In this document: positions 20,348 to 39,449 of the stretch, piece by piece
Numbering within the stretch: position 1 is the stretch's first letter
How the letters are laid out: each line of letters opens with the position of its first letter
Assembly (NCBI GenBank): GCA_902760805.1
Contig: CACWHY010000002.1
Span: 1 to 64,000 of the forward strand
DNA from: Ruminococcus flavefaciens
Lineage (GTDB): Bacteria > Bacillota > Clostridia > Oscillospirales > Ruminococcaceae
Direction: 5' to 3'
Length of the DNA stretch: 64,000 bases
Program-made: the position numbers and the translations under genes
The notes under the pieces: model-generated
What the model was told of the DNA's origin: nothing
Seen by the model: the letters and a program-made list of their open reading frames with translations, nothing else
Database searches by the model: none

Positions 20348-20359
20348 TAGGAGGCTGCA

Positions 20360-22366: not shown

Positions 22367-22395
22367 AAAAGAAGTGCCGTGTAAGCGGCACTTTT
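22365..22395. terminator. Bidirectional intrinsic terminator
   Basis: Stem AAGTGCCG/CGGCACTT with loop TGTAAG, six A on the left and TTTT on the right. It separates the convergent alkylsulfatase and LacI-family genes. Confidence 0.9.
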
Positions 22396-22398
22396 CTT

Positions 22399-23463
22399 TT
22401 ATATGAAGTATTCAATCATGTCTGAGCTGCTTAGGGGAGAGCAGCTGCTGCGTACGATCAACGTCGATCCCAGCTCGATCCTAGCTGTGGAATGATGCCC
22501 ACCTTTAAGCCGGTCAAGCAGGAGATAAACGGCAAATCTAGCCATTTCTTCTTTGGGGAGGCTTAGAGTTGTCAGCATAGGCTTTGTATACTTTGCCTGC
22601 GCAATATCGTCGCTGGAGATGATAGACGGCTCGTAATACCTGCTGCCGAACTTTCCCAGAGCCTTTAGCATACCTACAGCAATAATGTCGTTTGCGCAGT
22701 AGATCCCGGTAGGACGGTCGGCCATTTGAAATATTCTCTGCATTGCATTTATACCCTCGTTCTCACTAAGACCGCATTGTATCATAAGGTCGATGTCGGC
22801 CTCGATGTTGTGGGTGAGCAGGGCCTCCTGAAAGCCCTTAAATCGGCATTCGCTTCGGCAGTCTCCCACGTAAGCTATTCTTCTGTGCCCGAGACGAATA
22901 AGGTATTCCACGGCGCTGATCGCTATCTTTCGACCGTCACACAAAACCTCGTCAATGGCGTAATTAGTTGGATTGCGATTGACCGAGACTACGTTCTTCC
23001 ATTGAGATTTTAGCTGTTTTATGCCCTTTTCGCAGCATTTTCCAACGATTATCAGACCGTCAGTTTTATTGGTGCTGTACATCTCCCGAACAGCTTGTCT
23101 GATATCGAGCTTATCGCATTCTGTCTCGTTGGAGAATGCCGGCTCGTAGAGTATCTCAGTAAGTGTGCAGGTATTTCGGGTGATCTCTCCTTGAATAAAT
23201 GCGATGAGCTCCGAAAAAAACGGATCGGTATCCCCGTCGGTGCGTGTAACGAGAATAGATATCCTGTAAAGGAAGCTGCCTGTGTTTTTTCCGGAACGAA
23301 GCCTTTTGGCAGACTCATTCGGAACATAGTTCATCTCTATCGCAGCAGCAAAGATCTTGTCACGGATCTCTATCGAGGAACACTTGTGGTCCGGCTTGCT
23401 CAGCACACGGGAGACTGTAGAAACGGAAACACCCACCTTTTCGGCAATTTCTTTTATCGACAT
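22399..23463 (-). CDS. LacI family transcriptional regulator
   Basis: A 354-residue regulator. The N-terminal helix-turn-helix is SIKEIAEKVGVSVSTVSRVLS, with the hinge region MNYVPNESAKRLRSG; the rest is a periplasmic-binding-like effector domain with GLIIVGKC, RIAYVGDC and GIYCANDIIAVG landmarks. Such repressors bind palindromes with a central CG. Three sites of that type lie in front of the transporter/sulfatase operon and none were found in front of this gene, so the operon is the likely target. An effector could be the organosulfate or its product. Confidence 0.92.
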   Translation of the reverse strand: MSIKEIAEKVGVSVSTVSRVLSKPDHKCSSIEIRDKIFAAAIEMNYVPNESAKRLRSGKNTGSFLYRISILVTRTDGDTDPFFSELIAFIQGEITRNTCTLTEILYEPAFSNETECDKLDIRQAVREMYSTNKTDGLIIVGKCCEKGIKQLKSQWKNVVSVNRNPTNYAIDEVLCDGRKIAISAVEYLIRLGHRRIAYVGDCRSECRFKGFQEALLTHNIEADIDLMIQCGLSENEGINAMQRIFQMADRPTGIYCANDIIAVGMLKALGKFGSRYYEPSIISSDDIAQAKYTKPMLTTLSLPKEEMARFAVYLLLDRLKGGHHSTARIELGSTLIVRSSCSPLSSSDMIEYFI

Positions 23464-23577
23464 TAGGATGGCCTCCTATAACCTATAAATAAGATATGCT
23501 TAATATGAATATTGTATCATCTCTGCTCTGCTTTGTCAAGGCTTTTGTGTTTGCTGTATCAAAGACACTCCTAAAGT

Positions 23578-23606
23578 TTGACAAAATGGAGCAGACAGAG
23601 TATAAT
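23578..23606 (+). promoter_or_regulatory. Sigma-A promoter of the feoAB-type gene
   Basis: TTGACA, 17 bases, TATAAT, a consensus promoter about 70 bases upstream of the translation start. No clear Fur-type palindrome was seen near it. Confidence 0.88.
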
Positions 23607-23672
23607 ATTATGGGGGAAGTGCGGATAATGCTTATTTCTCCTGATCTATGCAAACTAAACGGAGGTCATGAA

Positions 23673-26018
23673 ATGACACTTAAAGATATAAGGGCTGGCG
23701 AGAGCTGCATCGTTACCAAATTAGAGGGTGAGGGCGCTCTTCGTCAGCATCTGCTTGATATGGGTGTTCTTCCCGGTACTGAGCTTACTGTGGTAAAGTA
23801 TGCTCCGATGGGGGATCCTATCGAGGTGAGGATCCACGGCTATGAGCTGACATTGAGGCTGGCAGATGCCGAACAGATCATCGTTGATCCCTGCGAGAAG
23901 AAAAGTGTTTCTCCTGAGAAAAAACCTGAACGCAAGCGCATTGAGCATCCGGGTCTCGGAGAGGGAGGCCGCTTCCACCTGAAGGGCGACGGTGATCCTC
24001 TCCCTGAAGGAACGATCATGAAGTTTGCTCTTGTGGGCAATCAAAACAGCGGAAAAACCACTCTATTCAACCGTCTGACCGGAGCCAAGCAGCACGTCGG
24101 AAATTTCCCGGGTGTTACTGTTGACAGAAAGGATGGAGCTATCAAGGGGCACCCCGACACTCTGATAACCGATCTGCCGGGTATCTACTCCATGTCTCCG
24201 TATAGCAGCGAGGAGATCGTTTCACGTAATTTTGTTCTTTCCGAAAATCTCCACGCTATCATAAATATAGTTGACGCTGCGAATATTGAGAGAAATCTGT
24301 ATCTGACCATGCAGCTCCTTGAAATGAACATACCGATGGTTGTTGCTCTTAATATGATGGACGAGCTCACTGCCAACGGCGGAAGCATAGACGTAAACCA
24401 TATGGAGCAGCTTTTAGGTGTGCCGGTCGTACCGATATCCGCTGCGAAGAATTTCGGTATCGACGAACTTGTCGAGCACGCCATACATATCGCAAAATAT
24501 CAGGAAAAGCCTCTTCGTCAGGATTTCTGCGACAGATCCGAGGGAGGCGGTGCAGTTCATCGCTGTCTGCACAGCGTCTGTCATCTTCTGGAGGATCACG
24601 CTGAAAAAACGGGACTCCCTTTGCGCTTTGCAGCCAGCAAGGTGATCGAAGGAGATCCGCTTATCGTCAGTCAGCTCCAGCTTGACAAAAACGAGGAGGA
24701 GCTCATTGACCATATCGTTTTACAGCTCGAAAAAGAGCGTGGCCTTGACCGAAGTGCCGCCATTGCAGATATGCGTTTTTCCTTCATTCTTAGGCTCTGC
24801 CATAAGACTGTGAAAAAACCGGCCGAGAGCCGTGAGCACATTCGCAGCCGTCGGATCGACGCTTTTCTTACCGGAAAATACACCGCTATCCCAGCTTTTA
24901 TCGCAACTATGGCTCTTGTTTTCTGGCTGACATTCAATGTTATCGGAGCCTGGCTTCAAGGCCATTTGGAGAGCGGTATCGATGCTGTTACTAATGCAGC
25001 GGACAAGGCTCTTTCTCATGTCGGAGCAAATGAAGCGATCCACAGCCTTATCATCGACGGTGTTTTCGCCGGAGTAGGCAGCGTTCTCAGCTTCCTGCCG
25101 ATAATCGTCACGCTGTTTTTGTTCCTGTCGCTGCTTGAGGACAGCGGCTATATCGCAAGAGTTGCCTTCTTCATGGACAAGCTGCTGCGAAAGATAGGCC
25201 TTTCCGGAAGAAGTATCGTGCCTATGCTTATAGGTTTTGGCTGCTCAGTACCTGCTATAATGGCAACAAGAACTCTTCCCAGTGAGCGTGATCGAAAGAT
25301 GACGATCCTTTTGACGCCCTTTATGAGCTGTACAGCCAAGCTGCCGATATATGCCTTCTTTGTAAGTGCGTTTTTCCCGAAAAGAGGCGGACTTATCATG
25401 GTAGGTCTTTATCTCCTGGGAATTATCACCGGCATTCTTGCAGCTCTTTTGTACAAGGGCTCGCTTTTCCGTGGAGAGCCTGTGCCTTTTGTAATGGAGC
25501 TCCCGAATTATCGTCTTCCCGGCCTCAGAAACGTAGCTCAGCTTCTTTGGGAAAAGGCAAAGGACTTCCTTCAGAGGGCTTTTTCCGTTATCCTTATCGC
25601 AACCGTAGCCGTATGGTTTTTGCAGAGCTTTGATTTCAAACTGCACATGGTCGATGAAGCCGGAGATAGTATCCTTGCTTCAGTTGCCAGTCTTTTCGTG
25701 CCTATGATGAAGCCGATAGGTCTTGGGGATTGGCGTATCATCGTTTCCCTTGTAAGCGGATTTATGGCCAAGGAGAGCGTTGTTTCTACCATGGAGATCC
25801 TATTCTCCGGCGGTGTGACGACCGCCCTTACAGGTCTTTCGGCGGCATCAGTTCTTGTGTTCTCGCTGCTCTATACACCGTGTGTTGCGGCTATCGCAGC
25901 GGTAAAGCGTGAGCTTGGAAGGAAATGGGCTGTTGGAGTTGTTGTGATCCAGTGCGCTATCGCATGGGTCGCAGCACTGCTCGTCCGTGCTATCCTCATA
26001 CTTTTAGGGGTGAACTGA
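23673..26018 (+). CDS. feoB: Ferrous iron transporter, FeoA-FeoB fusion
   Basis: A 781-residue membrane transporter for Fe2+. Residues 1-75 form a FeoA (SH3-like) domain (MTLKDIRAGESCIVTKLEGEG, LLDMGVLPGTEL). The GTPase domain follows with G1 GNQNSGKT at 122-129, NFPGVTVD, the G3 DLPGIYSM and ALNMMDE. The C-terminal half holds Gate segments with PMLIGFGCSVPAIMATRT and Cys-containing helices. The ATG at 23673 has GGAGG six bases upstream and starts at the FeoA domain; the open frame further upstream crosses the promoter. A Cys-rich partner gene starts at the very next base. Confidence 0.93.
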   Translation: MTLKDIRAGESCIVTKLEGEGALRQHLLDMGVLPGTELTVVKYAPMGDPIEVRIHGYELTLRLADAEQIIVDPCEKKSVSPEKKPERKRIEHPGLGEGGRFHLKGDGDPLPEGTIMKFALVGNQNSGKTTLFNRLTGAKQHVGNFPGVTVDRKDGAIKGHPDTLITDLPGIYSMSPYSSEEIVSRNFVLSENLHAIINIVDAANIERNLYLTMQLLEMNIPMVVALNMMDELTANGGSIDVNHMEQLLGVPVVPISAAKNFGIDELVEHAIHIAKYQEKPLRQDFCDRSEGGGAVHRCLHSVCHLLEDHAEKTGLPLRFAASKVIEGDPLIVSQLQLDKNEEELIDHIVLQLEKERGLDRSAAIADMRFSFILRLCHKTVKKPAESREHIRSRRIDAFLTGKYTAIPAFIATMALVFWLTFNVIGAWLQGHLESGIDAVTNAADKALSHVGANEAIHSLIIDGVFAGVGSVLSFLPIIVTLFLFLSLLEDSGYIARVAFFMDKLLRKIGLSGRSIVPMLIGFGCSVPAIMATRTLPSERDRKMTILLTPFMSCTAKLPIYAFFVSAFFPKRGGLIMVGLYLLGIITGILAALLYKGSLFRGEPVPFVMELPNYRLPGLRNVAQLLWEKAKDFLQRAFSVILIATVAVWFLQSFDFKLHMVDEAGDSILASVASLFVPMMKPIGLGDWRIIVSLVSGFMAKESVVSTMEILFSGGVTTALTGLSAASVLVFSLLYTPCVAAIAAVKRELGRKWAVGVVVIQCAIAWVAALLVRAILILLGVN

Positions 26019-26180
26019 ATGAAGGCAGTTGACGTAATTCTTCTAATTATAGTATGTGCGGCATTGTCACTCGCTGTTGTCAGCGTGATCAGAAAGAAAA
26101 AGAGCGGCAATGGCTGCTGCGGAAGCTGCCAAGGATGCTCCAAAAAGGACAGCTGCGGAGGAACTCACAGCAACGAATAG
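26019..26180 (+). CDS. FeoB-associated Cys-rich membrane protein
   Basis: A 53-residue protein: one N-terminal membrane helix (VILLIIVCAALSLAVVSVI), a basic stretch RKKK, and a tail with CC, SCQGC and SC motifs. Small proteins with this design follow feoB in many Firmicutes (FeoB-associated Cys-rich family) and are thought to aid iron transfer or electron supply. Its ATG begins directly after the feoB stop codon (TGAATG), and a terminator follows eight bases after its stop. Confidence 0.88.
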   Translation: MKAVDVILLIIVCAALSLAVVSVIRKKKSGNGCCGSCQGCSKKDSCGGTHSNE

Positions 26181-26187
26181 TTTTTGC

Positions 26188-26216
26188 AGACCGTCTGGAA
26201 ACAGGCGGTCTTTTCT
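26188..26216 (+). terminator. Intrinsic terminator of the feo operon
   Basis: Stem AGACCGTCTG/CAGGCGGTCT with one G-T pair, GAAA tetraloop and TTTTC. Confidence 0.9.
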
Positions 26217-26224
26217 TTGATGTC

Positions 26225-26253
26225 TTGACATTTTCAGAAGATCGGCGTATAAT
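26225..26253 (+). promoter_or_regulatory. Sigma-A promoter of the methyltransferase gene at 26294
   Basis: TTGACA, 17 bases, TATAAT, starting nine bases after the feo terminator. Confidence 0.88.
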
Positions 26254-26293
26254 TAGGTCAAATGAAACATACATCACAGAATAGGAGAATATA

Positions 26294-26932
26294 ATGGAAC
26301 CTGAACACATCTCAATAACTGAACAAGGTGACCCAAGAAAGCCTAAGGGCGAAGCCGGAGCCGAGATGCTCCGCAGAATGAACGATTCCCATTATGCAGT
26401 TACTGGCTGGGCGCTGGAGCATTTCAGCTTTTCCCCGGACGACTGCGTGCTTGATATAGGCTGCGGCGGGGGAGAGACTCTCCACCGACTTGCCAGCCTT
26501 GTCCCGGAAGGAAAACTCTTTGGAGCGGATCATTCTCCCGTTTCTATCCAGCAAAGCTCTGTCCGTAATCAGGATCTTATGCAAAACGGCAGGCTAAAGC
26601 TCGTTGAGGCATCGGTCGAGGCTTTGCCTTATGCAGATAATAGCTTCGACAAGGTCATAACGGTGGAGAGCTTCTATTTTTGGCCGGATCATGCGGAAAA
26701 CTTAAAAGAGGTGCGCAGAGTGTTGAGACCGGGAGGAACTCTCCTCATTGTGGCAGATATTTATGGTGATGCAAAATTGGACGAGGAAAGCAAGAAAAGC
26801 GTTGAGAAGTACAGTCTTTTCAACCCAACGCTTGCTGAGTTCAGACAGCTTCTCACCTCTGCTGGCTTCAGTTATGTGGATATCCACACAAAACCAGACA
26901 CTACCTGGGTCTGCGCAGAGGCCAGAAAATAG
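26294..26932 (+). CDS. Class I SAM-dependent methyltransferase
   Basis: A 212-residue methyltransferase with motif I VLDIGCGGGETLHRLA, acidic GADHSPVSI, FDKVITVESFYFW (motif II region) and RVLRPGGTLLIVADIY (motif III). The VESFYFWPD wording is seen in small uncharacterised UbiE-like enzymes of gut Firmicutes. Substrate unknown. It has its own promoter and AGGAG site and is not co-transcribed with feoB. Confidence 0.86.
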   Translation: MEPEHISITEQGDPRKPKGEAGAEMLRRMNDSHYAVTGWALEHFSFSPDDCVLDIGCGGGETLHRLASLVPEGKLFGADHSPVSIQQSSVRNQDLMQNGRLKLVEASVEALPYADNSFDKVITVESFYFWPDHAENLKEVRRVLRPGGTLLIVADIYGDAKLDEESKKSVEKYSLFNPTLAEFRQLLTSAGFSYVDIHTKPDTTWVCAEARK

Positions 26933-26980
26933 GCGCTTTTCGGCTCGAAAAAATTTTTTTGAAAAATTTCGAAAAAACCC

Positions 26981-27009
26981 TTGACAAAACGGATCTGATG
27001 TGGTAAAAT
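26981..27009 (+). promoter_or_regulatory. Promoter of the four-tRNA cluster
   Basis: TTGACA, 17 bases, TAAAAT. It is preceded by phased A and T tracts (26949-26978) that may act as an UP element; the same GAAAAAACCC stretch precedes the tRNA-Leu promoter at 30719. Confidence 0.85.
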
Positions 27010-27045
27010 ATATAAGTCGTCAGGTGACGACAGCGATTTTGGTTT

Positions 27046-27121
27046 GGGGGTTTAGCTCAGCTGGGAGAGCATCTGCCTTACAAGCAGAGGGTCATAGGTT
27101 CGAGCCCTATAGTCCCCACCA
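27046..27121 (+). tRNA. tRNA-Val (TAC)
   Basis: Full cloverleaf with encoded CCA. Acceptor GGGGGTT/AGTCCCC uses two wobble pairs; the anticodon loop CTTACAA gives TAC. Confidence 0.95.
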
Positions 27122-27125
27122 AATT

Positions 27126-27202
27126 GGCCTCGTAGTTCAGTTGGTTAGAACGCCTGCCTGTCACGCAGGAGGTCGACAGTTCGAATCTGTTCGGGGTCGC
27201 CA
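27126..27202 (+). tRNA. tRNA-Asp (GTC)
   Basis: Cloverleaf with encoded CCA and discriminator G. The anticodon stem CCTGC/GCAGG encloses CTGTCAC, anticodon GTC. Confidence 0.95.
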
Positions 27203-27206
27203 TCGC

Positions 27207-27282
27207 GCGGATTTAGCTCATCTGGTAGAGCGCCACCTTGCCAAGGTGGAGGTAGCGAGTTCGAGCCTCGTAATCCGCTCCA
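27207..27282 (+). tRNA. tRNA-Gly (GCC)
   Basis: Perfect seven-pair acceptor GCGGATT/AATCCGC, anticodon loop TTGCCAA, encoded CCA. Confidence 0.96.
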
Positions 27283-27286
27283 ATAA

Positions 27287-27360
27287 GGCGCTATAGCCAA
27301 GTGGTAAGGCGTGGGTCTGCAACACCCTGATCCCCAGTTCAAATCTGGGTGGCGCCTCCA
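27287..27360 (+). tRNA. tRNA-Cys (GCA)
   Basis: Acceptor GGCGCTA paired with the GGCGCC-side strand, anticodon loop CTGCAAC giving GCA, encoded CCA. Last tRNA of the cluster. Confidence 0.94.
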
Positions 27361-27385
27361 AGCTCCGTTTTACGGAGCTTTTTTC
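27361..27385 (+). terminator. Intrinsic terminator of the tRNA cluster
   Basis: AGCTCCGT/ACGGAGCT stem with three-base loop and six T, directly after the tRNA-Cys CCA. Confidence 0.92.
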
Positions 27386-27409
27386 TTTATGTAAAATAGG
27401 AGTTTTGAT

Positions 27410-28246
27410 ATGACAGAGATCAAACAAAAGCTGCTTACAGAAGAGCGTGCTCTCTACCGAAGCAGTGGCTTGTGTGTCAAGGACGTGATCTTCGATGAAG
27501 GGGAGTCTCCTTTGAAACATTCCTCTAATATCGAGCTGGATCATGCTATTTTTCGGGGAAAATACCCCGTCTGGTACAGCAGTGATATTGATATGCATGA
27601 CAGCACGGTTTTTGAGACAGGACGTGCTGGATTTTGGTATACGGACAGGCTTTCCGTCCGTGACAGCATTATCGCTGCGCCGAAATGTATCCGCAGGTGC
27701 AGGGGAGTGTCTCTGGAGAACGTCAGTCTTCCCATGGCTGCGGAGACAATATGGGAGTGTCAAGACGTTATACTGAAAAACGTCACCGCTAACGGCGATT
27801 ATCTCTGCATGAACTGCCATAATATTGAGATCGACGGTCTTGATCTGACAGGAAAATACTGCTTTGACGGCGTAAGTGATGTGGAGATCTCCAACGCTCG
27901 CATGATCGGCAGAGATGCCTTTTGGAACAGCGAAAACGTAACTGTTCGTGACAGCTTTATTTCCGGAGCTTACATCGGCTGGAATTCCAGAAACATGACC
28001 TTTATCAACTGTACTCTGGAGAGCCTTCAGGGCTTCTGTTATATTGACGATCTGGTCATGAAGAACTGTACACTGCTCAATACCACACTTGCTTTCGAGT
28101 ATTCAACAGTTGATCTTGAGCTCAAGGGCTCGGTGGACAGCATCATAAACCCTATCTCGGGAATCATTCGCTGCGAGAGCATTGGGCAGCTGACTCTCGA
28201 CCCAGACAGGGTTGACGTTACACAGACCAAGATCATCACTGGATAA
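27410..28246 (+). CDS. DUF3737 family protein (right-handed beta-helix-like)
   Basis: A 278-residue protein matching the DUF3737 family. It consists of short repeats of the form x-(D/N)-(V/I)-x-(I/L/V)-x-(D/N) such as SSDIDMHDSTVF, SENVTVRDSFI and SRNMTFINCTL, which suggests a parallel beta-helix. No signal peptide or membrane helix is present. The family is common in gut bacteria and has no assigned function. AGGAG lies before the ATG. Confidence 0.85.
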   Translation: MTEIKQKLLTEERALYRSSGLCVKDVIFDEGESPLKHSSNIELDHAIFRGKYPVWYSSDIDMHDSTVFETGRAGFWYTDRLSVRDSIIAAPKCIRRCRGVSLENVSLPMAAETIWECQDVILKNVTANGDYLCMNCHNIEIDGLDLTGKYCFDGVSDVEISNARMIGRDAFWNSENVTVRDSFISGAYIGWNSRNMTFINCTLESLQGFCYIDDLVMKNCTLLNTTLAFEYSTVDLELKGSVDSIINPISGIIRCESIGQLTLDPDRVDVTQTKIITG

Positions 28247-28249
28247 AAG

Positions 28250-28282
28250 ATCCCCTCTCAGAAATGAGAGGGGATGATTTTT
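28250..28282. terminator. Intrinsic terminator between convergent genes
   Basis: Eleven-base stem ATCCCCTCTCA/TGAGAGGGGAT with GAAA loop, followed by GATTTTT on the right. On the left TTTT of the minus strand is provided by AAAA at 28245-28249, so it may serve both genes. Confidence 0.88.
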
Positions 28283-29945
28283 AGCTGTTTATGATGCTTT
28301 CAACTCTTGTCTGGAGATTTGCTGCACACTCCTCAGCGGTTATCTCTCCACGGAAGAATGGCTCCAGTTCCTCATTTGTTGCGTTGAACAACTCGTCGTC
28401 AAGGAAGGCTCCTGACCGGTCGATGCTGTTGATGAGCTCCTTGCAAGCCTCTACCTCAGCGGCAGTTATGTTGCCGGCATCTGTCTCGATACCGCTTGCT
28501 GTGCCGTAGTTAGGCTCGCCTTCGTGAGCGGAAGCCTCAGCAGCGATCTGCTCGAATGCTTCGTTGTTGATGGGGAATCCCTCTGCGGGATATGCGGCAA
28601 CATCCTCTCCGGGAGTACGATACTGCATATCGTAGCTTACAAGCTCCTTGATGAAGAGCCATGCACCGTACTGCTCCTTCTCGTCGGAGAAAGCGCTTAC
28701 TGCCAGCTCGTTAAGGGGAGCGATGTATGAGCCGCTGCCGTTTTCGCTGGGATAGCCTACCAGACACCACTCATGCTCCTCGTCGCTGCCGGGAAGTATG
28801 GGCCATACTGCTGCGTGATAGCCTCCGAAGCCGTAGATAGGGGTATTGGAGGTAAGCTGTGGAGCAAAATAATTGTAATCAGGTTTTGTGAAACCGTCAG
28901 GCTCGGCGTCAAAGTTTTCGATGAATCTCAGATAATTGATGAATTCCTCGGAATTGAAATTGACCTCGCCTGTGTAGTAATCGAAAAATCTTCCCATGTC
29001 ATCACGGATGAGCTCAAGGTATGTGTAGAAACGGGAGGTATATCCGCCTCCGCCTACAGCAGAGCCCTCAGGCATCTGGTTCCAGTGCTCCACCATTTCA
29101 TCAAAGGTCCAGTTCTCCTTGTCTCCGGCGTACTTCGTCTCGCCACGACGAGTCTGGATAAAGTAGCCCTGGGGCATATAGAAGAGCTGTCCGTCGTGCT
29201 CGAAAAGGCTCAGAACATGGGAATTGAGGCTTGTGCTGTCGAAATCCTCGTCCATAGCCATGATAGTGTTCAGATCAGCAAAAGCGCCCTTTGCTGCAAG
29301 ACGTTCAAAATCGTTTCTGCCGCCGCTTGCATAGCTGATGGTAATATCGAATGCCCCGTTTAAAGCATCCTCATTGTACTTATCCTGAACAGCCTGGAGA
29401 TTGTCAAAATATGCTTCTCTGTTTTCAACATAAGTCGAATCGTACTCGATGTCGCCGGGATATTCGTCCTCATAAGCCTTGAACTCGATACGATAGCCGT
29501 TGTCCTCCTCGTTGAAGCGGTCTACAGCCTCTTTGTAGATGTTGTTGTCCTCGTCGTCGGACCATACTGCCATTGTGAGGACGATGTCCTCGTCAACTAC
29601 CTCCTCAGGGATCTCTTCAGGAACCTCCTCTGAGATCTCATCAGCAGGGGAGACATTGTGCAGGCCATGGTGGATAAATGCGCCGCCCACAGCTCCAACT
29701 GTGAGCACACCGCAGGCCGCAATGCTGAGGCCTCTTTTCAGGCCGGACTTCTTTCTGACTTCAACTCCATGTACGGAATCACCGTATTCTATATTGATAT
29801 TTCTTTTCTCTTCGTTCATAGTTATCCTCCTATAGAGCTCTTCTTTCTTTTCATCGCTAACGACCTTGCAGGATTCGGCAATTCTGCTGAGCTCCTCGTC
29901 GCCGGCGCTGTGAAAGACTTCTCGGATCTTCTTCTTGTTTTTCAT
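28281..29945 (-). CDS. Membrane protein joining an anti-sigma-like cytoplasmic tail to an extracellular solute-binding domain
   Basis: A 554-residue single-pass protein. Residues 1-70 are a charged cytoplasmic region, 73-92 a membrane helix, 100-118 a Glu/Pro spacer, and about 119-554 a family 1 extracellular solute-binding (sugar ABC) fold (TMAVWSDDEDNNIYKEAVDRFNEE, DITISYASGG, GAFADLN, YGAWLFIKEL). There is no lipobox and no signal cleavage site. It lies 12 bases after an ECF-type sigma gene, the usual place for an anti-sigma factor. The design suggests that binding of a sugar or other solute outside releases the sigma factor inside. No ABC permease genes are nearby, which argues against a normal transport role. 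Confidence 0.8.
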   Translation of the reverse strand: MKNKKKIREVFHSAGDEELSRIAESCKVVSDEKKEELYRRITMNEEKRNINIEYGDSVHGVEVRKKSGLKRGLSIAACGVLTVGAVGGAFIHHGLHNVSPADEISEEVPEEIPEEVVDEDIVLTMAVWSDDEDNNIYKEAVDRFNEEDNGYRIEFKAYEDEYPGDIEYDSTYVENREAYFDNLQAVQDKYNEDALNGAFDITISYASGGRNDFERLAAKGAFADLNTIMAMDEDFDSTSLNSHVLSLFEHDGQLFYMPQGYFIQTRRGETKYAGDKENWTFDEMVEHWNQMPEGSAVGGGGYTSRFYTYLELIRDDMGRFFDYYTGEVNFNSEEFINYLRFIENFDAEPDGFTKPDYNYFAPQLTSNTPIYGFGGYHAAVWPILPGSDEEHEWCLVGYPSENGSGSYIAPLNELAVSAFSDEKEQYGAWLFIKELVSYDMQYRTPGEDVAAYPAEGFPINNEAFEQIAAEASAHEGEPNYGTASGIETDAGNITAAEVEACKELINSIDRSGAFLDDELFNATNEELEPFFRGEITAEECAANLQTRVESIINS

Positions 29946-29957
29946 AGCATTTCCTCC

Positions 29958-30515
29958 TTATAGGGTGATATCCAGTTCCTCAAGAACTGTTCTGAGTCGT
30001 TTGAGAGATCTTGAGCATCTCATCCTAACAGCTGTCGAGCTCATACCAACGATCTTGCCAATTTGCTTTGAGTCTCTGTCAAAAAAGAATTTCTGGATAA
30101 TGATAGTGGAATCTGGCTCGCCAAGCTCCTTGACCTTATCGATCAGGATCCTAGCTCTGTCCGAAAGCTCGGCTTCTTCCTGCAAGTTTTGCTGAGAGGG
30201 GAGCGGTATCTCCATTTCGTCCATGGAGACTGTACGGAAAGATCTTGTGCTGATCGAACGTTTCAGATTTATTGCTTTATTTTTTGCAACGGTCCCGATA
30301 AAAGCCTTGATAGAGCCTTCATAAGAGCTGTCATAGTGAATGAGTACGTCACTGAAAACGTCTACAACGCAGTCCTCAACGTCACGCTGAGATCCGCAGC
30401 CACGAAGTATCTGAAAAACGATAGTGTATACATAGCTGTGATATTGGTCGAATAGCTTTCTGTAGCCATCCTCCGGCGAGTCGTATATAGATCGCTTGAT
30501 CTGGTTGTCGGTCAT
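29958..30515 (-). CDS. ECF-type RNA polymerase sigma factor
   Basis: A 185-residue sigma-70 family factor with region 2 at about 18-85 (YHSYVYTIVFQILRG, DVEDCVVDVFSDVLIHY, IKAFIGTVAKNKAIN) and region 4 at about 120-178 (LGEPDSTIIIQKFFFDRDSKQIGKIVGMSSTAVRMRCSR is the helix-turn-helix zone). It is first in a two-gene operon with the fused solute-binding membrane protein. GGAGGGAG precedes the ATG. The sigma-A promoter lies about 110 bases upstream; autoregulation cannot be judged from this sequence. Confidence 0.9.
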   Translation of the reverse strand: MTDNQIKRSIYDSPEDGYRKLFDQYHSYVYTIVFQILRGCGSQRDVEDCVVDVFSDVLIHYDSSYEGSIKAFIGTVAKNKAINLKRSISTRSFRTVSMDEMEIPLPSQQNLQEEAELSDRARILIDKVKELGEPDSTIIIQKFFFDRDSKQIGKIVGMSSTAVRMRCSRSLKRLRTVLEELDITL

Positions 30516-30625
30516 TCGCTCCCTCCTTTCATCAAAGTGAAGTAAGTTCTGCAGAGCGCCTTCATAATAAACATACAGCTCATCAGGGTAGAGTGTAACA
30601 AATTATAAAAGAATAACTCTGCTCC

Positions 30626-30654
30626 ATTATATAATGGATAAGTTTTTCTGTCAA
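30626..30654 (-). promoter_or_regulatory. Sigma-A promoter of the ECF sigma operon
   Basis: On the minus strand TTGACA, 17 bases, TATAAT. It gives a leader of about 105 bases; no ECF-type AAC box was recognised there. Confidence 0.8.
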
Positions 30655-30718
30655 TAAATTCCGAAAAATAGGGGCTGCTTAGCTGAAAAATTTTTTTGAG
30701 TTTTTTTTGAAAAAACCC

Positions 30719-30747
30719 TTGACAATTTCCTTGCACTGTGCTATAAT
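30719..30747 (+). promoter_or_regulatory. Promoter of the tRNA-Leu pair
   Basis: TTGACA, 17 bases, TATAAT, sixteen bases before tRNA-Leu(CAG). Upstream A/T tracts end in GAAAAAACCC exactly as at the other tRNA promoter. Confidence 0.9.
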
Positions 30748-30763
30748 AATTAAGCTGAGTTAT

Positions 30764-30850
30764 GCGGATATGGCGGAATAGGCAGACGCGCTGGCTTCAG
30801 GTGCCAGTCGGGGCAACTCGGTGCAGGTTCAACTCCTGTTATCCGCACCA
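30764..30850 (+). tRNA. tRNA-Leu (CAG)
   Basis: Class II tRNA of 87 bases with long variable arm. Acceptor GCGGATA/TATCCGC, anticodon loop TTCAGGT, encoded CCA. Confidence 0.95.
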
Positions 30851-30852
30851 CA

Positions 30853-30878
30853 AGGATCCTCGATTTTTCGAGGATCTT
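30853..30878 (+). terminator. Hairpin between the two tRNA-Leu genes, weak terminator or processing element
   Basis: ATCCTCGA and TCGAGGAT form a perfect stem around four T, extended by three pairs. Only a poor T-tract follows, so read-through into the second tRNA is likely. Confidence 0.5.
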
Positions 30879-30893
30879 GTGTTATTATAAGAA

Positions 30894-30980
30894 GCCGCTG
30901 TGGTGGAATAGGCAGACACAAGGGACTTAAAATCCCTCGGAGTAAAATCCGTACCGGTTCGACCCCGGTCAGCGGCACCA
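30894..30980 (+). tRNA. tRNA-Leu (TAA)
   Basis: Class II tRNA of 87 bases. Acceptor GCCGCTG/CAGCGGC, anticodon loop CTTAAAA, encoded CCA. No sequence duplicating its 3' end was seen downstream, so it is not evidently used as an attachment site. Confidence 0.95.
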
Positions 30981-30998
30981 GCCCGAGTGGGCGCAGTT

Positions 30999-31032
30999 TT
31001 GCGGTTTAGTTTTTCTGAGCCGCAATTTTTTT
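30999..31032 (+). terminator. Probable terminator after the tRNA-Leu genes
   Basis: TTGCGG/CCGCAA six-base stem with a 15-base loop and seven T. From here to 31333 no gene or other signal is evident apart from a second weak hairpin near 31077-31105 (AAACGG/CCGTTT). Confidence 0.55.
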
Positions 31033-31333
31033 GTTCCGCAGGGAACTAGTTTTTAACAAAGACACAAATAATGAAAACGGTCCAGGAGCATCTGGGCCGT
31101 TTTTCTGTATTTTAGTTCGGTGATCATTGTCATCTTAACATTAGCTGGCATCCGCTTATTAGATGGATAGAATCTTAATGAGTTAACTGCAATAGTCATT
31201 CTCATCGTTGAGATATATAACGGAATAAAAAATGAGATTGACAAACATAAGTAGTCGATCTCATTAAATCACTATTTAGAGCTGTTCGCCCATAATTAGA
31301 TTCTAGCACATTATCACCCTGATGTCAAGCTGT

Positions 31334-31362
31334 TTGACAACAATAGGGAAAAGATGTATAAT
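31334..31362 (+). promoter_or_regulatory. Orphan sigma-A promoter, partial copy of the recombinase promoter
   Basis: TTGACA, 17 bases, TATAAT, with GATGTATAAT matching the recombinase promoter at 32675-32703. It leads into a 20-base repeat and then a terminator, with no gene between. Confidence 0.7.
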
Positions 31363-31385
31363 TATTATATTGTTGAGTTCAATAT

Positions 31386-31405
31386 AAAGTTGCACCAAAT
31401 CAAAG
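31386..31405 (+). repeat. 20-base direct repeat, left copy
   Basis: AAAGTTGCACCAAATCAAAG. The identical sequence occurs at 32734-32753, 1348 bases away in the same orientation, as the left arm plus spacer of a long inverted repeat before the recombinase gene. The right arm is absent in this copy. Confidence 0.9.
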
Positions 31406-31422
31406 CTATCTAGAAATTCAAA

Positions 31423-31458
31423 GGCCGTGCCCGAATTAGTACGAGGGCACGGCCTTTT
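31423..31458 (+). terminator. Terminator downstream of the orphan promoter
   Basis: Perfect ten-base stem GGCCGTGCCC/GGGCACGGCC, twelve-base loop, TTTTC. It would end any transcript from 31334 after about 90 bases. Confidence 0.85.
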
Positions 31459-31603
31459 CTTATTGTCCATGATGAAAACTCGCTCCGGCCTCATGCTTTG
31501 TATGAGAACGGAAATTAGCACATTCCTTTCGTTGCGCCTCGCAGAGTGGGTGGGGGCGCGACCATAGGAGCGACAGATGGCGGTTTAGACTGTTTTTTAA
31601 GCG

Positions 31604-31629
31604 TTGGGGGAGGAAACCCCCTCCCCCAA
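31604..31629. terminator. G/C-rich hairpin in a gene-free stretch
   Basis: TTGGGGGAGG/CCTCCCCCAA stem with a six-base loop. It is one of three hairpins between 31459 and 31756 (others: ACCGCT/AGCGGT near 31684-31710 and GGCGG/CCGCC near 31717-31735). This 300-base stretch has no coding frame I can support and looks like the non-coding end of a mobile element. Confidence 0.5.
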
Positions 31630-31756
31630 CTAGAATATCTTTCGATAGAGCCCGAAGGGTTTCAAATAAATCGCGTAAGCGATACCGCTTCTATATAAAG
31701 GGAGCGGTTTATTTTTGGGCGGCCAAAAAATCCGCCTGGGGTGCCGTGGTATCTTC

Positions 31757-31963
31757 TTAGTGCGAGTAGCTGCCGGAGTCCGCACCAAGAACGACTATAG
31801 CAACTAGAGTAATAACGGCAACGATACCGATGATAGCGAAAACAGCGAGAGTGTTCAAAGAGCTTTCAAGTTTGCGTCTGGCTTCCAGCTCCTCGATTTC
31901 TGCTTTGATTTTCTTGATGTTCTCATGTTCAAAAGCGTCTTGATAGTTGTCATATGGTGGCAT
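31757..31963 (-). CDS. Small single-pass membrane protein
   Basis: A 68-residue protein with a charged, coiled-coil-like N-terminal half (ENIKKIKAEIEELEARRKLE) and one membrane helix (LAVFAIIGIVAVITLVAIVVL). The ATG at 31963 is preferred because AAGGAGG lies eight bases upstream; an ATG two codons earlier is too close to it. The gene overlaps the 3' end of the Xre regulator gene by 14 bases, so the two are co-transcribed. Function unknown. Confidence 0.65.
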   Translation of the reverse strand: MPPYDNYQDAFEHENIKKIKAEIEELEARRKLESSLNTLAVFAIIGIVAVITLVAIVVLGADSGSYSH

Positions 31964-32192
31964 TTTCATTTCCTCCTTTATTGTTTTCTTTTAATGGTTT
32001 ACGGTCTGCCAGATAATCAAGTGTTACTTTGTAATAATCTGCAACTCTTTCCATAAAGTCAATAGTTGGTATTCTTTCTCCGTTCTCATATCGTATATAT
32101 GTGTTTTTTGAAATATAGAATAGCTTTGCACATTCTACTTGTGTTAGGTCGTTGTCTTCTCTTAAGTCCCTTATTCTGTGATACTTGTACAA
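31950..32192 (-). CDS. Xre-family helix-turn-helix regulator
   Basis: An 80-residue Cro/CI-type protein: RIRDLREDNDLTQVECAKLFYISKNTYIRYENG is a clear HTH_3, followed by IDFMERVADYYKVTLDYLAD. A TTG start at 32192 is proposed because AAGGGGGTGA lies just upstream; the open frame further upstream would run through the promoter and a palindromic operator. A -10 box TATAAT lies about 30 bases upstream (near 32210-32215) with a perfect palindrome covering the -35 zone, so the gene probably represses itself. Confidence 0.82.
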   Translation of the reverse strand: MYKYHRIRDLREDNDLTQVECAKLFYISKNTYIRYENGERIPTIDFMERVADYYKVTLDYLADRKPLKENNKGGNENATI

Positions 32193-32224
32193 TTGGCTCA
32201 CCCCCTTTTTGTTTATTATACCAA

Positions 32225-32244
32225 AATACCCCATATGGGGTATT
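32225..32244. promoter_or_regulatory. Operator 1 of the Xre regulator
   Basis: AATACCCCATATGGGGTATT, a perfect 20-base palindrome over the -35 region of the divergent Xre gene. Confidence 0.8.
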
Positions 32245-32253
32245 ATTAAGTTG

Positions 32254-32269
32254 TACCCCAAATGGGGTA
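32254..32269. promoter_or_regulatory. Operator 2 of the Xre regulator
   Basis: TACCCCAAATGGGGTA, the same palindrome with one central mismatch, centred 27 bases from operator 1. The following bases up to the next gene hold a small ACGTC/GACGT hairpin and nothing else recognised. Confidence 0.75.
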
Positions 32270-32438
32270 GAGCAAAAGCGCACGTCCGCAGACGTGGGCG
32301 TGTGTGAGCTCAACAAGAACGGCAACCCCATAGCCGATAGGGGAGAAAGGTAATATTATGGCAAATATTTTCATAGGATACGAAATTCGTAAAGGTACAT
32401 TCAATAAGAAAACGATTTTGTCAAGTATGGAGGTTATT

Positions 32439-32678
32439 ATGAATATTACTTTTGAAGCTAACGATAAGCATATATCGATTGATTTAGTAGCGCTTGATTT
32501 AATTGTCGGTGGTGATACTGATGAATATTCAAAGTCTATTCTGAAAGAAATAGAGAATGCTTTCTGGCATTCTGTCGAATACTATGAAAAACGTGGGTTT
32601 ACTTGTCTTGCTGAAAAACAATGTGCTTATGCTAAAGCCATTCATGAAGCCTATAAAGCTAAGTTTATTAACACTTGA
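32439..32678 (+). CDS. Small protein of unknown function
   Basis: A 79-residue protein (MNITFEANDKHISIDLVALDLI) with a helical, Tyr/Lys-rich second half (EYYEKRGFTCLAEKQCAYAKAIHEAYK). The ATG at 32439 has TGGAGG five bases upstream; a longer form from 32358 with a weaker AGAAAGG site is also possible (106 residues). It is divergent from the Xre gene and may be under its control. No family recognised. Base use is A/T-richer than in the flanking core genes. Confidence 0.55.
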   Translation: MNITFEANDKHISIDLVALDLIVGGDTDEYSKSILKEIENAFWHSVEYYEKRGFTCLAEKQCAYAKAIHEAYKAKFINT

Positions 32679-32703
32679 TTTCCTGGGGGAAATGATGTAT
32701 AAT
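32675..32703 (+). promoter_or_regulatory. Promoter of the tyrosine recombinase gene
   Basis: TTGATT, 17 bases, TATAAT. The transcript would start near 32710 and carry the long inverted repeat in its leader. Confidence 0.75.
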
Positions 32704-32726
32704 GAATTTAATAGCAATGTTGAAAC

Positions 32727-32774
32727 TATATCCAAAGTTGCACCAAATCAAAGTTTGGTGCAACTTTGGATATA
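32727..32774 (+). repeat. Perfect inverted repeat, 21-base arms with 6-base spacer
   Basis: Arms 32727-32747 and 32754-32774 are exact reverse complements; the spacer is TCAAAG. The inner part, TTGCACCAAA and TTTGGTGCAA around six bases, has the geometry of a Xer/tyrosine-recombinase crossover site. It lies between the recombinase promoter and its ribosome site, so in RNA it would also be a very stable hairpin. Confidence 0.92.
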
Positions 32775-32796
32775 TCATAACGGAAGGAGTCTTTAT

Positions 32797-33786
32797 GTGA
32801 AGGTCAATAATGCTGAAAACCCTGAATTTCTCAACGAATATCTTGTGCATTTGAAGGTCGTGAAAATGCTTTCAGAACGGACGATCAGCGAGTATTATCT
32901 TGATGTTAGGCTGTTTCTGAAGTTCTACTATGGATCTGTAAATGATTCTGGAAAACAAATTGAGGATATTTCGATAGTATCTATGACATCGGATGATCTT
33001 CGCAGGATCTCTGTGTCAGACATTTACAGCTTTATTATTTACACAGCTGATGAACGTCAAAATGCTGATAAGGCACGTTATAGAAAGCTGTCGGCTCTGA
33101 GGAGCTTTTTCAAATATCTTACTAAAGTGGCGCATATTCTTGAAAAAGATCCCACCAAGGATATTGATGTTCCTGTGCCAAAGCACGCCTTACCGAAGTT
33201 TCTTTCCTTAAAGGAAAGTCTTAGGCTTTTAGAGACTGCCGGAAGCCGTGATTCGCTCCGTGACTATTGCATAATTACGATCTTTCTAAATTGCGGAGTT
33301 CGTCTTAGCGAGCTTGTAGGCATGAATATTTCTGACATTGATTTTTCTGAAAACCGAATGAAAGTTCTAGGCAAAGGCAATAAAGAACGAATGATCTATC
33401 TCAACGAGGCTTGCATAAGTGCTTTAGTTAAATATTTGAAAGTCAGAAAAGAAAACCCAAAAGCTGCGGAAGAGCCGGCACTATTTATAAGTAACCAGAA
33501 CAAGCGTATCTCCAAGCGCCGTGTTCAGCAGATCGTCGAGGACACTCTCAAGCAGGCTGGCCTTGACGGAAAAGGTATCACTACTCACAAGCTGCGCCAC
33601 ACTGCGGCAACTCTTATGTATCAGTACGGAGATGCTGATGTACTGACCTTGAAGGAGCTTCTTGGTCATGTAAGCGTGTCCACAACTGAGATCTATACGC
33701 ACCTAAATGATGAGAACGTTCGCAGTGCTGTGGAAAGCAATCCACTTGCTAAAGTTAAAAACGGACGAAGCAGCGATGACGAATGA
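32797..33786 (+). CDS. Tyrosine recombinase, XerC/XerD-like
   Basis: A 329-residue site-specific recombinase. An N-terminal SAM-like core-binding domain (about 8-115) precedes the catalytic domain. Active-site residues are R169 (GVRLSE), K193 (GKGNKER), H264 and R267 (HKLRH), H291 (LLGH) and the nucleophile Y300 (EIYTH). The GTG start at 32797 is chosen because GGAAGGAG lies seven bases upstream; earlier in-frame starts would translate the inverted repeat. The site-like inverted repeat directly upstream and its half copy at 31386 suggest the enzyme acts on its own control region. It could also be a domesticated integrase; no phage or conjugation genes are present. Confidence 0.88.
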   Translation: MKVNNAENPEFLNEYLVHLKVVKMLSERTISEYYLDVRLFLKFYYGSVNDSGKQIEDISIVSMTSDDLRRISVSDIYSFIIYTADERQNADKARYRKLSALRSFFKYLTKVAHILEKDPTKDIDVPVPKHALPKFLSLKESLRLLETAGSRDSLRDYCIITIFLNCGVRLSELVGMNISDIDFSENRMKVLGKGNKERMIYLNEACISALVKYLKVRKENPKAAEEPALFISNQNKRISKRRVQQIVEDTLKQAGLDGKGITTHKLRHTAATLMYQYGDADVLTLKELLGHVSVSTTEIYTHLNDENVRSAVESNPLAKVKNGRSSDDE

Positions 33787-33828
33787 AACAAGCCCGAAAG
33801 CCGCAATATAGCAGCCTTCGGGCTTGTT
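33787..33828. terminator. Intrinsic terminator between convergent genes
   Basis: AACAAGCCCGAA/TTCGGGCTTGTT stem around a partly paired loop, directly after the recombinase stop codon and before the end of the convergent ArsC-like gene. Confidence 0.78.
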
Positions 33829-33829
33829 C

Positions 33830-34180
33830 TTATAAGAGCACTTCCCATTCTTTTTCCTTGAATCCGGTAAGGACTATTCCGTTCTCAGCGATGAGCAGCG
33901 GCCGCTTGACCAGCATACCGTCAGTCGCAAGAAGCTGGAGCTGCTCTTCCTCTGACATTTCCGGCAGCTTGTCCTTTAGCTCCATCGACTTATAAAGCAG
34001 CCCGCTTGTATTGAAAAAACGTTTTAGCGGAAGCCCGCTTGCTGAGTACCATTTTTTCAGTTCATCGTAAGTGGGATTGTTTTCCTTGATGTCTCTAAGT
34101 TCGTAGCTGATCCCTTTTTCATTCAGCCAGCTCTGGGCTTTCTTGCAGGTCGAGCATTTAGGATAGCAGATAAACAGCAT
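33830..34180 (-). CDS. ArsC/Spx family thioredoxin-fold protein with CxxC
   Basis: A 116-residue protein of the arsenate reductase/Spx superfamily. MLFICYPKCSTCKKAQSWL carries the CSTC redox motif, and RPLLIAENGIVLTGF is the conserved cis-Pro region. Such proteins are either reductases or redox-sensing RNA polymerase-binding regulators; this one lacks obvious Spx-specific residues and is left unassigned. The second ATG (34180) is used because GGAGGA lies six bases upstream. It overlaps the end of gatB, so it is the last gene of the ligA-gatCAB run. Confidence 0.85.
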   Translation of the reverse strand: MLFICYPKCSTCKKAQSWLNEKGISYELRDIKENNPTYDELKKWYSASGLPLKRFFNTSGLLYKSMELKDKLPEMSEEEQLQLLATDGMLVKRPLLIAENGIVLTGFKEKEWEVLL

Positions 34181-34182
34181 TT

Positions 34183-35625
34183 TCATTCCTCCATTTTTAT
34201 GAGTTTTTCAGCAATTTCTCGGACCATTGCAGGGTTAGCACGTCCTTTTGATGCCTTCATGCAAAGTCCGATCAAGTGGTTGAGAGCATTTGTTTTTCCT
34301 GATCGGAATTCCTGAACAGACTTGGGCTGCTGAGCTATGATCTCAGCGACGATCTTTTGGATATGCTCTGGATCTGAGATCTGTGCAAGTCCCAGCCTTT
34401 CAGTTATTTCTTTTACGTTTCCTCCGCTTGTTATAAGCTCGCTCAATACTTTTTTGGCAGAAGAAGAGGAGAGCCTCCCCTGTTCAGTGTCCCCTGCCAG
34501 CTCTGCCAGAGCCAGCGAAGTCAGTTTTGTGTCACTGATCTGATCACCGGTGTCGTTGAGATACTTTGTGATCTCACCCACAATAAGGCTGCATAGAGTT
34601 TTTGCAGATGCCCTTTCTAAGCTCAAGCAGTGATCAAAAAGCTCAGCTTTATCCTTATCGAAGGCAATGATCTTAGCCTCCTGTTCTTTCAGCCCAAGTT
34701 TCTCAGTGTAGCGGAACAGCTTTTCTCCGGGAAGCTCAGGCATAGAGCCTTTTATTTGCGAGACAAGATCATCCGGCAAGCTGATCAGTCCCAAGTCTGG
34801 CTCGGGGAAAAAACGATAGTCCATAGCGTTTTCCTTGGTGCGCATAACCGTGCTGACTCCCCTGCTGTCGTCCCAGCGGCGAGTCTCCTGCTGGATATGC
34901 TCCCCTGATCTTAGCAGCTCCAGCTGCCTTTTGATCTCATATTCGATGCCTCTTACTGCACCGCTGAAGCTATTGATGTTTTTCATCTCACATCTTGTTC
35001 CAAGGATCTCGCTCCCCTTTTCTTTGAGGGAAACGTTCACATCGCAACGCACCGAGCCCTCCTGCATCTTGCAGTCAGAGATATCAAGAGCTTTCAAGGT
35101 GCTGCGGACGGTCTCAAGGAAGGCGTGGGCCTCTTCAGAAGAGGATATATCAGGCTCTGTCACGATCTCGATAAGCGGCACTCCGCAGCGATTATAGTCG
35201 GCCAGAGTGATACCCTTTTCAGCATCGTGGATCAGCTTTCCTGCGTCCTCTTCGATGTGTATTCGGTTTATCCGAATACGCTTGTGTTCTCCATTGACCA
35301 GTATGTCAAGATACCCTCTCACACATAGCGGCTTCTCGGATTGAGAGATCTGGTATGACTTAGGCAAGTCAGGATAGAAGTAGTTTTTTCTGTCCTGAAA
35401 GGAGTTTTGCTGAATGGTGCAGTTCATAGCTATACCTGCTTTTACAGCAAGCTCCACAGCTTTTTTGTTAAGTCGAGGAAGAGCTCCCGGATAGCCCATG
35501 CACACAGGGCAGACCAGGGTATTTGGGGGCGCACCGAATTTGTTTTCACAGCTGCAATACATTTTAGAGGCTGTTTTTAGTTCCGCATGGACCTCAAGTC
35601 CTATAACTGACTGGTATTCGGCCAT
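34183..35625 (-). CDS. gatB: Aspartyl/glutamyl-tRNA amidotransferase subunit B
   Basis: The 480-residue kinase/tRNA-binding subunit of GatCAB, which converts misacylated Glu-tRNA-Gln or Asp-tRNA-Asn to the amide. The N-terminal GLEVHAEL, YCSCENKFGAPPNT, CPVCMGYPGALP (zinc and ATP region) and the C-terminal YqeY-like helical domain are present. Adjacent to gatA with no gap (stop and start codons abut). Confidence 0.96.
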   Translation of the reverse strand: MAEYQSVIGLEVHAELKTASKMYCSCENKFGAPPNTLVCPVCMGYPGALPRLNKKAVELAVKAGIAMNCTIQQNSFQDRKNYFYPDLPKSYQISQSEKPLCVRGYLDILVNGEHKRIRINRIHIEEDAGKLIHDAEKGITLADYNRCGVPLIEIVTEPDISSSEEAHAFLETVRSTLKALDISDCKMQEGSVRCDVNVSLKEKGSEILGTRCEMKNINSFSGAVRGIEYEIKRQLELLRSGEHIQQETRRWDDSRGVSTVMRTKENAMDYRFFPEPDLGLISLPDDLVSQIKGSMPELPGEKLFRYTEKLGLKEQEAKIIAFDKDKAELFDHCLSLERASAKTLCSLIVGEITKYLNDTGDQISDTKLTSLALAELAGDTEQGRLSSSSAKKVLSELITSGGNVKEITERLGLAQISDPEHIQKIVAEIIAQQPKSVQEFRSGKTNALNHLIGLCMKASKGRANPAMVREIAEKLIKMEE

Positions 35626-37080: not shown

Positions 37081-37081
37081 A

Positions 37082-37333
37082 TCACACCACCGTTTCAGGG
37101 ATAACGATGAAGCCGTCCGTAGTTTTAGGAGCGTTTGCTAGAAGCTGGTCACGGGTATACTTTTGCGATACAGCGTCCTCACGAAGCTCCATAGCCTTAG
37201 GCCGAACAGCGCCGTCAATATCTGGCAGCTCCCCTATCATGCCCTCGATGCACTCCATGTCTTTTGCAAGGAGCTCAGCCTCCTCCGGGTCTAGCGAAAG
37301 GCAGGCGAGCTCTGCGAGATGTTTGATGTCCAT
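37082..37333 (-). CDS. gatC: Aspartyl/glutamyl-tRNA amidotransferase subunit C
   Basis: An 83-residue belt subunit that stabilises GatA on GatB. It begins MDIKHLAELACLSLDPEEAE and carries the typical LREDAVSQKYTRDQLLANAP tail. It starts five bases after ligA. Confidence 0.92.
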   Translation of the reverse strand: MDIKHLAELACLSLDPEEAELLAKDMECIEGMIGELPDIDGAVRPKAMELREDAVSQKYTRDQLLANAPKTTDGFIVIPETVV

Positions 37334-37338
37334 AGGCC

Positions 37339-39351
<2,013 letters not shown>

Positions 39352-39353
39352 TT

Positions 39354-39382: not shown

Positions 39383-39449
39383 CAGCCTTCCTCTATTTCC
39401 AAAATATTGTTCAAGCCCTTTGGCATATGATTAAGCGGAGGTGTTGATA

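Follow-up and report, generated by a model that had tools for sequence, protein, structure and literature searches.

The window, i.e., the whole 64-kb stretch of Ruminococcus flavefaciens DNA analyzed here, carries a two-gene unit that probably constitutes a sigma/anti-sigma switch, in which the 554-aa product of the second gene would be an anti-sigma factor using a transporter solute-binding protein (SBP) as its sensor. Computational support for this reading comes from the architecture of the protein, the fold of its ectodomain, the pairing of the two genes, the scatter of related fusions on the SBP tree and a promoter-like motif shared by sigma operons.

Organization of the locus

Both open reading frames were found where the original prediction had placed them (Table 1), encoding proteins of 185 and 554 aa on the minus strand, with a gap of 12 bases in which an AGGAGG-like ribosome-binding site can be read. 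The unit lies between two tRNA-Leu genes (30764-30980) and a DUF3737 gene (27410-28246) that is convergent with it. Inspection by eye of the listed part of the window (20000-40000) revealed no permease ORF, and the prediction that no permeases are nearby holds for that part of the window, but not for relatives, in which four fusions precede two permease genes (see below).

Other predicted genes of the region include a tyrosine recombinase (32557-33786; Phage_integrase, 8.3e-40), located near the sigma/anti-sigma pair, and an 840-aa ORF (23496-26018) that by eye resembles FeoA joined to FeoB. A 668-aa ORF (20360-22366), which resembles a metallo-beta-lactamase-fold alkylsulfatase, is preceded by a 427-aa ORF that is presumably DUF1254-like. 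A role of the locus as a defence system was ruled out, with no PADLOC match up to E 0.01.

Table 1. Features assigned to the two-gene unit and its borders (window coordinates)
Feature	Position	Strand	Basis
Putative two-gene sigma/anti-sigma unit	28281..30515	-	Within 64-kb window
ECF-type sigma factor gene, 185 aa	29958..30515	-	Sigma70_r2, Sigma70_r4_2, TIGR02937
Putative anti-sigma factor with SBP ectodomain, 554 aa	28281..29945	-	ORF, phmmer, hydropathy, AF2, Foldseek
Cytoplasmic tail, residues 1-72, putative anti-sigma domain	29730..29945	-	Tail alignment, sigma-tail pairs, AF2 model
Membrane helix, residues 73-91	29673..29729	-	Hydropathy maximum 2.03 at residue 73; K/R-rich stretch before
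SBP ectodomain, about residues 119-554	28284..29591	-	AF2, Foldseek CbpC; 41-44% identity to lipoprotein SBP L034
Housekeeping-type promoter TTGACA-17-TATAAT, upstream of sigma gene	30626..30654	-	12/12 match; consensus match only
ECF-like promoter candidate GTTACA-N17-GTAT...TTATGAA	30561..30599	-	Pattern from three sigma operons of same genome
Bidirectional terminator-like hairpin, 11 pairs, end of two-gene unit	28250..28275	.	Consensus match only

The sigma factor and its putative anti-sigma partner

The first gene encodes an ECF-type sigma factor, as originally predicted. Its product matches the sigma70-ECF model TIGR02937 (5.4e-15) and Pfam Sigma70_r2 (PF04542; 2.1e-06) above the cut-offs, and Sigma70_r4_2 (PF08281; 2.2e-05, 24.5 bits) just below the cut-off of 25.7; it is thus a short protein with regions 2 and 4 and no region 3, which is the composition of an ECF factor. 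No SigI match was found among the 25 of 67 NCBIfam matches listed.

The 554-aa protein has a charged tail, followed by one membrane helix, and its N-terminus is predicted from hydropathy and charge to be cytoplasmic. The length of the tail was set at approximately 72 residues, close to the 70 residues first proposed, because the most hydrophobic 19-mer begins at residue 73; five K/R residues occur in the stretch that precedes it. In the AF2 model the tail forms three helices (residues 2-13, 16-25 and 31-55) of low confidence (pLDDT about 50-68), and the membrane stretch, with pLDDT below 50, is not helical; this part of the model is weakened by the alignment, in which four tail-only rows were misplaced by the aligner. 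Since the tail gave no anti-sigma match in Pfam (up to E 1, unrelated weak matches only) and its profile retrieved chance-level matches from the PDB, it is assigned as a putative anti-sigma domain only by context.

This context is provided, first of all, by the genome of the window itself (2.73 Mb, 96.5% complete), where the expected paralogous pairs were indeed recovered: four more close sigma genes (on contigs C18, C43, C4 and C8; 35-43% identical) are each followed by a gene for a protein with the same kind of tail, including a GVE or GTE motif and a hydrophobic stretch, joined to another ectodomain. In the genus, the tail family was detected in 53 of 60 genomes, with up to 23 members per genome among the matches listed. 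A collection restricted to gaps of -80 to +200 bases yielded 42 distinct adjacent sigma-tail pairs, spaced by -59 to +15 bases (counted from longest-ORF starts), all in the gene order that had been regarded as the usual anti-sigma position. The sigma and tail distances of the 42 pairs are correlated (Mantel r 0.80, p 0.0005), and so are those of the 25 less similar pairs (r 0.43, p 0.001). A sigma gene of the same group was present in the locus for 57 of 58 tail ORFs, the exception lying at a contig end. Position, topology and family context of the 554-aa protein fit a predicted anti-sigma factor paired with its own sigma factor.

Ectodomains of the tail family are mostly unrecognized by Pfam. 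A Pfam scan (E up to 0.01) of the tail proteins of loci L071-L100 revealed an IseA-like endopeptidase-inhibitor domain in 3 of 28 and nothing else. Using an SBP profile built without the SBP loci L039, L044 and L057, no SBP ectodomain was found in the best 30 tail loci listed of the 60-genome search (0/30), some of whose ectodomains are cut by the locus end.

The solute-binding ectodomain

The remaining part of the protein is predicted to be a complete ABC solute-binding fold. A single-sequence AF2 model (mean pLDDT 33.6) was set aside; the model based on a 53-row alignment has a mean pLDDT of 80.8, with 330 of 554 residues at 90 or more and residues 48-111 below 50. Its top Foldseek match in the PDB is CbpC (E 4.2e-16; TM 0.71 by target and 0.55 by query; 16% identity). 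The same protein (7x0o) was retrieved from the PDB by phmmer with the 554-aa sequence (5.9e-08, followed by Lmo0181 at 3.4e-04) and, at 3.5e-35, by a profile built with relatives. No SBP family, SBP_bac_1 included, was matched in Pfam up to E 1, and none at this threshold among the 25 of 67 NCBIfam matches listed, whereas two fused relatives in a single genome (G062) match PF01547 or PF13416 above the cut-off. Thus the family 1 SBP fold originally proposed is borne out by the model, Foldseek and the CbpC profile, but not by a Pfam SBP match of the window protein.

Among free SBPs of the genus, the nearest relative found is of the lipoprotein type (L034; 41-44% identity over the domain). By eye, the 554-aa protein has no N-terminal lipobox, as had been noted before; an I-A-A-C sequence at residues 75-78 belongs to the start of the membrane helix and not to the end of a signal peptide.

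SBP fusions in the genus

A first scan of genome contigs with the window protein alone gave no relative. The genus was then represented by 125 genomes, searched with full-length and tail profiles and with the loci read (up to 11 candidates scored per genome in one scan), and at least eight SBP fusions were identified in at least six of them: the window, G062 (three fusions), G101, G098, G003 and G015. Two of the eight surfaced only through the tail-profile search, and the count of eight is a lower bound, because part of the candidates per genome was scored, among the matches listed. The fusion is rare in the genus (at least 6 of 125 genomes). In wider searches, no tail-reaching row occurred among the matches listed at the family level (396 genomes drawn, eight of them recognizably of the same genus; E up to 1e-20) or at the order level (394 genomes drawn; E up to 1e-40), an absence that carries weak weight outside the genus, with at most three candidates scored per genome.

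A sigma gene is located directly upstream of the SBP fusion in all eight cases, so that conservation of the membrane protein without the sigma gene, which would have spoken against the original prediction, was not seen. In the G015 fusion (888 aa), the same kind of tail is joined to a longer SBP ectodomain, one of the approximately 800-residue type. In G062, three neighboring sigma/SBP-anti-sigma pairs, of which two are in tandem and the third is divergent, adjoin one permease operon (L063 1-12001 and L070; contig C32 92000-112088).

Permease operons and split forms

Two permease genes follow the fusion in four of the seven cases with readable downstream DNA (one of the G062 fusions, G101, G098 and G003); the G015 fusion is followed by a contig end. 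Pfam BPD_transp_1 was matched by the first permease of L063, L144, L145 and L182 and by the second of L063, HlyD_3 was found in L063 and L144, and MacB_PCD in L063; the remaining genes of the permease operons, as well as the label "sugar-type", were assigned by resemblance. Two permeases and an HlyD-type gene, in several cases with a MacB-periplasmic-core-like gene, occur at loci L030, L033, L063, L144, L197, L199 and L233. These operons are an odd mix of importer and exporter components (checked with Pfam for L063 and in part for L144 and L030, and otherwise identified by resemblance). On its contig C24, the window genome itself has a permease operon of this kind, with a free SBP lipoprotein of 807 aa.

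Separate anti-sigma and binding proteins were also observed. A split form, composed of (i) a sigma factor, (ii) a tail anti-sigma with another ectodomain and (iii) a separate SBP lipoprotein, was found in 3 of 41 named SBP loci: L179 (Ruminococcus sp. RGIG7544), L182 (uncultured Ruminococcus RUG127) and L187 (Oscillospiraceae RUI441). Three mutually similar loci (L174, L177 and L181) contain a different ECF sigma gene, a second gene, taken as the putative anti-sigma of this ECF sigma, and SBP lipoproteins. Genome G098 has both a fused and a split operon, and in both cases two permease genes and an HlyD-like gene come next; this genome appears to be the RUG127 genome of split locus L182, to judge from the sigma, anti-sigma and SBP proteins, which start alike.

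Fusions stand directly before permease genes in several relatives, and the design would therefore read out the transporter's own binding protein. In the available text of PMC9601137, CbpC bound none of the sugars tested and its pocket is described as blocked by an extra loop, whereas an earlier study cited there reported binding of cellodextrin and glucose. Because the ligand of CbpC is thus disputed, the stimulus of the window sensor may be a sugar, a different solute or the permease, and a sugar ligand for the window ectodomain is uncertain. A tentative alternative is that the ectodomain is an SBP-fold docking domain which senses engagement of a permease or surface protein and itself binds no free ligand; the switch would then read the state of the transporter, not the nutrient. 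The blocked pocket of CbpC and the four genomes in which a fusion adjoins two permease genes would suit such a docking domain, which agrees less well with the window copy, where no adjoining permease was seen by eye and the SBP fold is otherwise complete in the AF2 model, or with the earlier report of sugar binding by CbpC.

It is possible, although we would not favor it, that one molecule serves both as the binding protein of an ABC importer and as the anti-sigma switch controlling it, reporting occupancy or engagement of the importer to the ECF sigma factor. The clearest case would be G062 (99% complete), since the SBP profile (E up to 1e-5) finds there three proteins, all of them fused, and the one gene product closely homologous to the first permease (the next best has 32% identity) is encoded directly behind one fusion; the window copy would keep the sensing part only. 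The same features of G062 can be read as favoring a protein that is primarily a transporter SBP, anchored by a helix instead of a lipid, whose tail is a relic without sigma control. This is unlikely, given that sigma and tail stay adjacent with correlated distances and that no permease is visible beside the window copy.

Origin of the fusions

The SBP tree comprised 37 rows: 32 chosen from 122, to which two new fusions and, for one of these, three further near relatives were added, with two cut-off duplicates dropped. On this tree the eight fused domains need five changes, which equals the number forced by well-supported branches, and a single fused clade is rejected (p-AU 8.75e-43). An earlier tree (31 of 122 rows, six fusions) gave four changes and likewise rejected one clade (p-AU 3.4e-29). 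The fused label is more clustered on the SBP tree than expected by chance, with 8 of 500 shuffles as low. The sigma tree (42 of 44 distinct sigmas, with six fusions, G003 and G015 being absent) gave five changes and also rejects one clade (p-AU 1.4e-4); therefore, the sigma factors paired with the fusions are likewise spread over different branches. The idea of one old fusion preserved as a single clade was thus rejected on both trees, for eight fusions in the SBP tree and for six of the eight in the sigma tree, and the relatives seem to have made the SBP/anti-sigma fusion several separate times. One gain followed by several tail losses is not strictly excluded, as the count on the SBP tree does not separate gains from losses.

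In the 37-row tree, the window SBP pairs with L034 (100/97), on a branch of 1.13 vs. 0.39 in its sister, which could mean relaxed constraint. Although this long terminal branch and the rarity of the fusion would be compatible with an SBP domain that is a degenerate passenger without sensory role, the signal being felt by the helix or linker, this is improbable, as a repeated functional link is indicated both by the five changes on the SBP tree and by the recurrence of the split form, and the domain is complete in a high-confidence AF2 model.

Putative promoters of the sigma operons

Upstream of the sigma genes of the window, C4 and C43, a GTKACA element and a downstream ATGAA element occur in identical register. 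In the 2.73-Mb genome, the pattern derived from these three operons matches three sites without mismatch (by construction), one with two and one with three mismatches, and the reversed pattern used as a control has 0 matches; the weight of the candidate promoter pattern is in the common register and the empty control, not in the zero-mismatch matches. The sigma gene of C18 is preceded by a looser form of the motif and that of C8 by none; the shared motif thus precedes three of the five pairs in one register.

A loose form, G[TC]nACA[CG]-N16-G[AT]nT, was present upstream of 15 of 44 distinct sigma genes and missing in 29 (200 simple base shuffles, the only kind of control: mean 0.21, maximum 2); it was drawn after inspection of some of the sequences tested. 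At the permease operon of C24, in the same genome as the window, no such motif was seen by eye. The shared promoter-like motif suggests self-activation of the sigma operon.

A fourth promoter-like site (L196 1744-1782; contig C5:5243-5281) precedes a gene for a secreted protein with dockerin, SH3 and C39-peptidase-like domains. This site also reads as an ordinary housekeeping promoter and is not claimed as a sigma target.

Proposed mechanism

For the window pair, we infer binding of the sigma factor by the tail, the direction of the signal, a ligand, proteolysis, self-activation and a regulon, in the following scheme. The cytoplasmic tail would hold the ECF sigma factor, and the single helix would join it to a complete SBP domain outside the cell, presumably taken from a lipoprotein SBP of the CbpC-like family. 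A change of state of the SBP, upon ligand binding or permease docking, would pass inwards through the helix, most likely by regulated proteolysis, which would free the sigma factor; the latter may then activate its own operon and a small regulon. A gene for an S2P-type protease was found, but it adds little to the idea of proteolysis, because such genes are present in all 14 control genomes too.

Comparison with known systems

The general plan of the window pair resembles that of the RsgI/SigI systems of Clostridium thermocellum, which, according to the available text of PMC12203970, likewise consist of a sigma factor and a single-pass partner with the anti-sigma part inside and the sensor outside, and in which several pairs with different sensors also occur in one genome. 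The sensors described there comprise CBM, glycoside hydrolase, PA14, peptidase-like and NTF2-like domains, whereas the window sensor has a predicted ABC solute-binding fold; furthermore, the window sigma factor matches ECF-type models.

RsgI models are included in both Pfam and NCBIfam. Assignment of the 554-aa protein to RsgI was rejected, as no RsgI domain was matched in Pfam up to E 1 or among the 25 of 67 NCBIfam matches listed, and neither the RsgI N-terminal nor the periplasmic autocleavage domain was found (Pfam; NCBIfam among the matches listed). The design would differ from the RsgI type, as originally proposed. The window pair would work like the RsgI systems, yet it is best called a variant of ECF anti-sigma signaling.

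The best-studied anti-sigma factors of the ECF type have sensors for stress, the envelope or polysaccharides. As described in the available main text of PMC7406223, class I anti-sigma factors are co-encoded with their ECF sigma factors, some members have no zinc motif, and sensory domains are usually C-terminal of the anti-sigma domain, a general layout to which that of the window pair is comparable; the window tail is a putative anti-sigma domain placed by context, with weak unrelated Pfam and chance-level PDB matches. The words "solute" and "SBP" occur 0 times in that text. No anti-sigma factor with an SBP ectodomain is named in the literature searched, a scope that leaves out preprints and most subscription papers and is no proof of absence.

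The solved fold closest to the window ectodomain is that of CbpC, the SBP of transporter C of C. thermocellum. The sugar transporter gene schemes in the available part of PMC9601137 include an acrA gene, comparable to the operons of two permeases and an HlyD-type gene found in the relatives. CbpC differs in its role as a plain binding protein, to which neither a membrane helix nor a cytoplasmic tail is joined. Family 1 SBPs share the fold of the window ectodomain, which differs from them in the lack of a Pfam SBP_bac_1 match, a lipobox and, by eye, a permease at 20000-40000.

If a transporter SBP is indeed the sensor, nutrient capture and transcription would be coupled in one protein. This would also suggest a possible role for CbpC-like binding proteins, the ligand of which is disputed in the available text of PMC9601137. 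Since the fused and split forms are both natural, even within G098, the design could be tested on two related operons.

Cell-surface signaling by iron carriers is a Gram-negative system in which the signal comes from an outer-membrane carrier receptor. There too, as far as the available text of PMC9249621 describes it, a membrane regulator connects transport with an ECF sigma factor; the window system would differ in having the binding protein itself inside the regulator.
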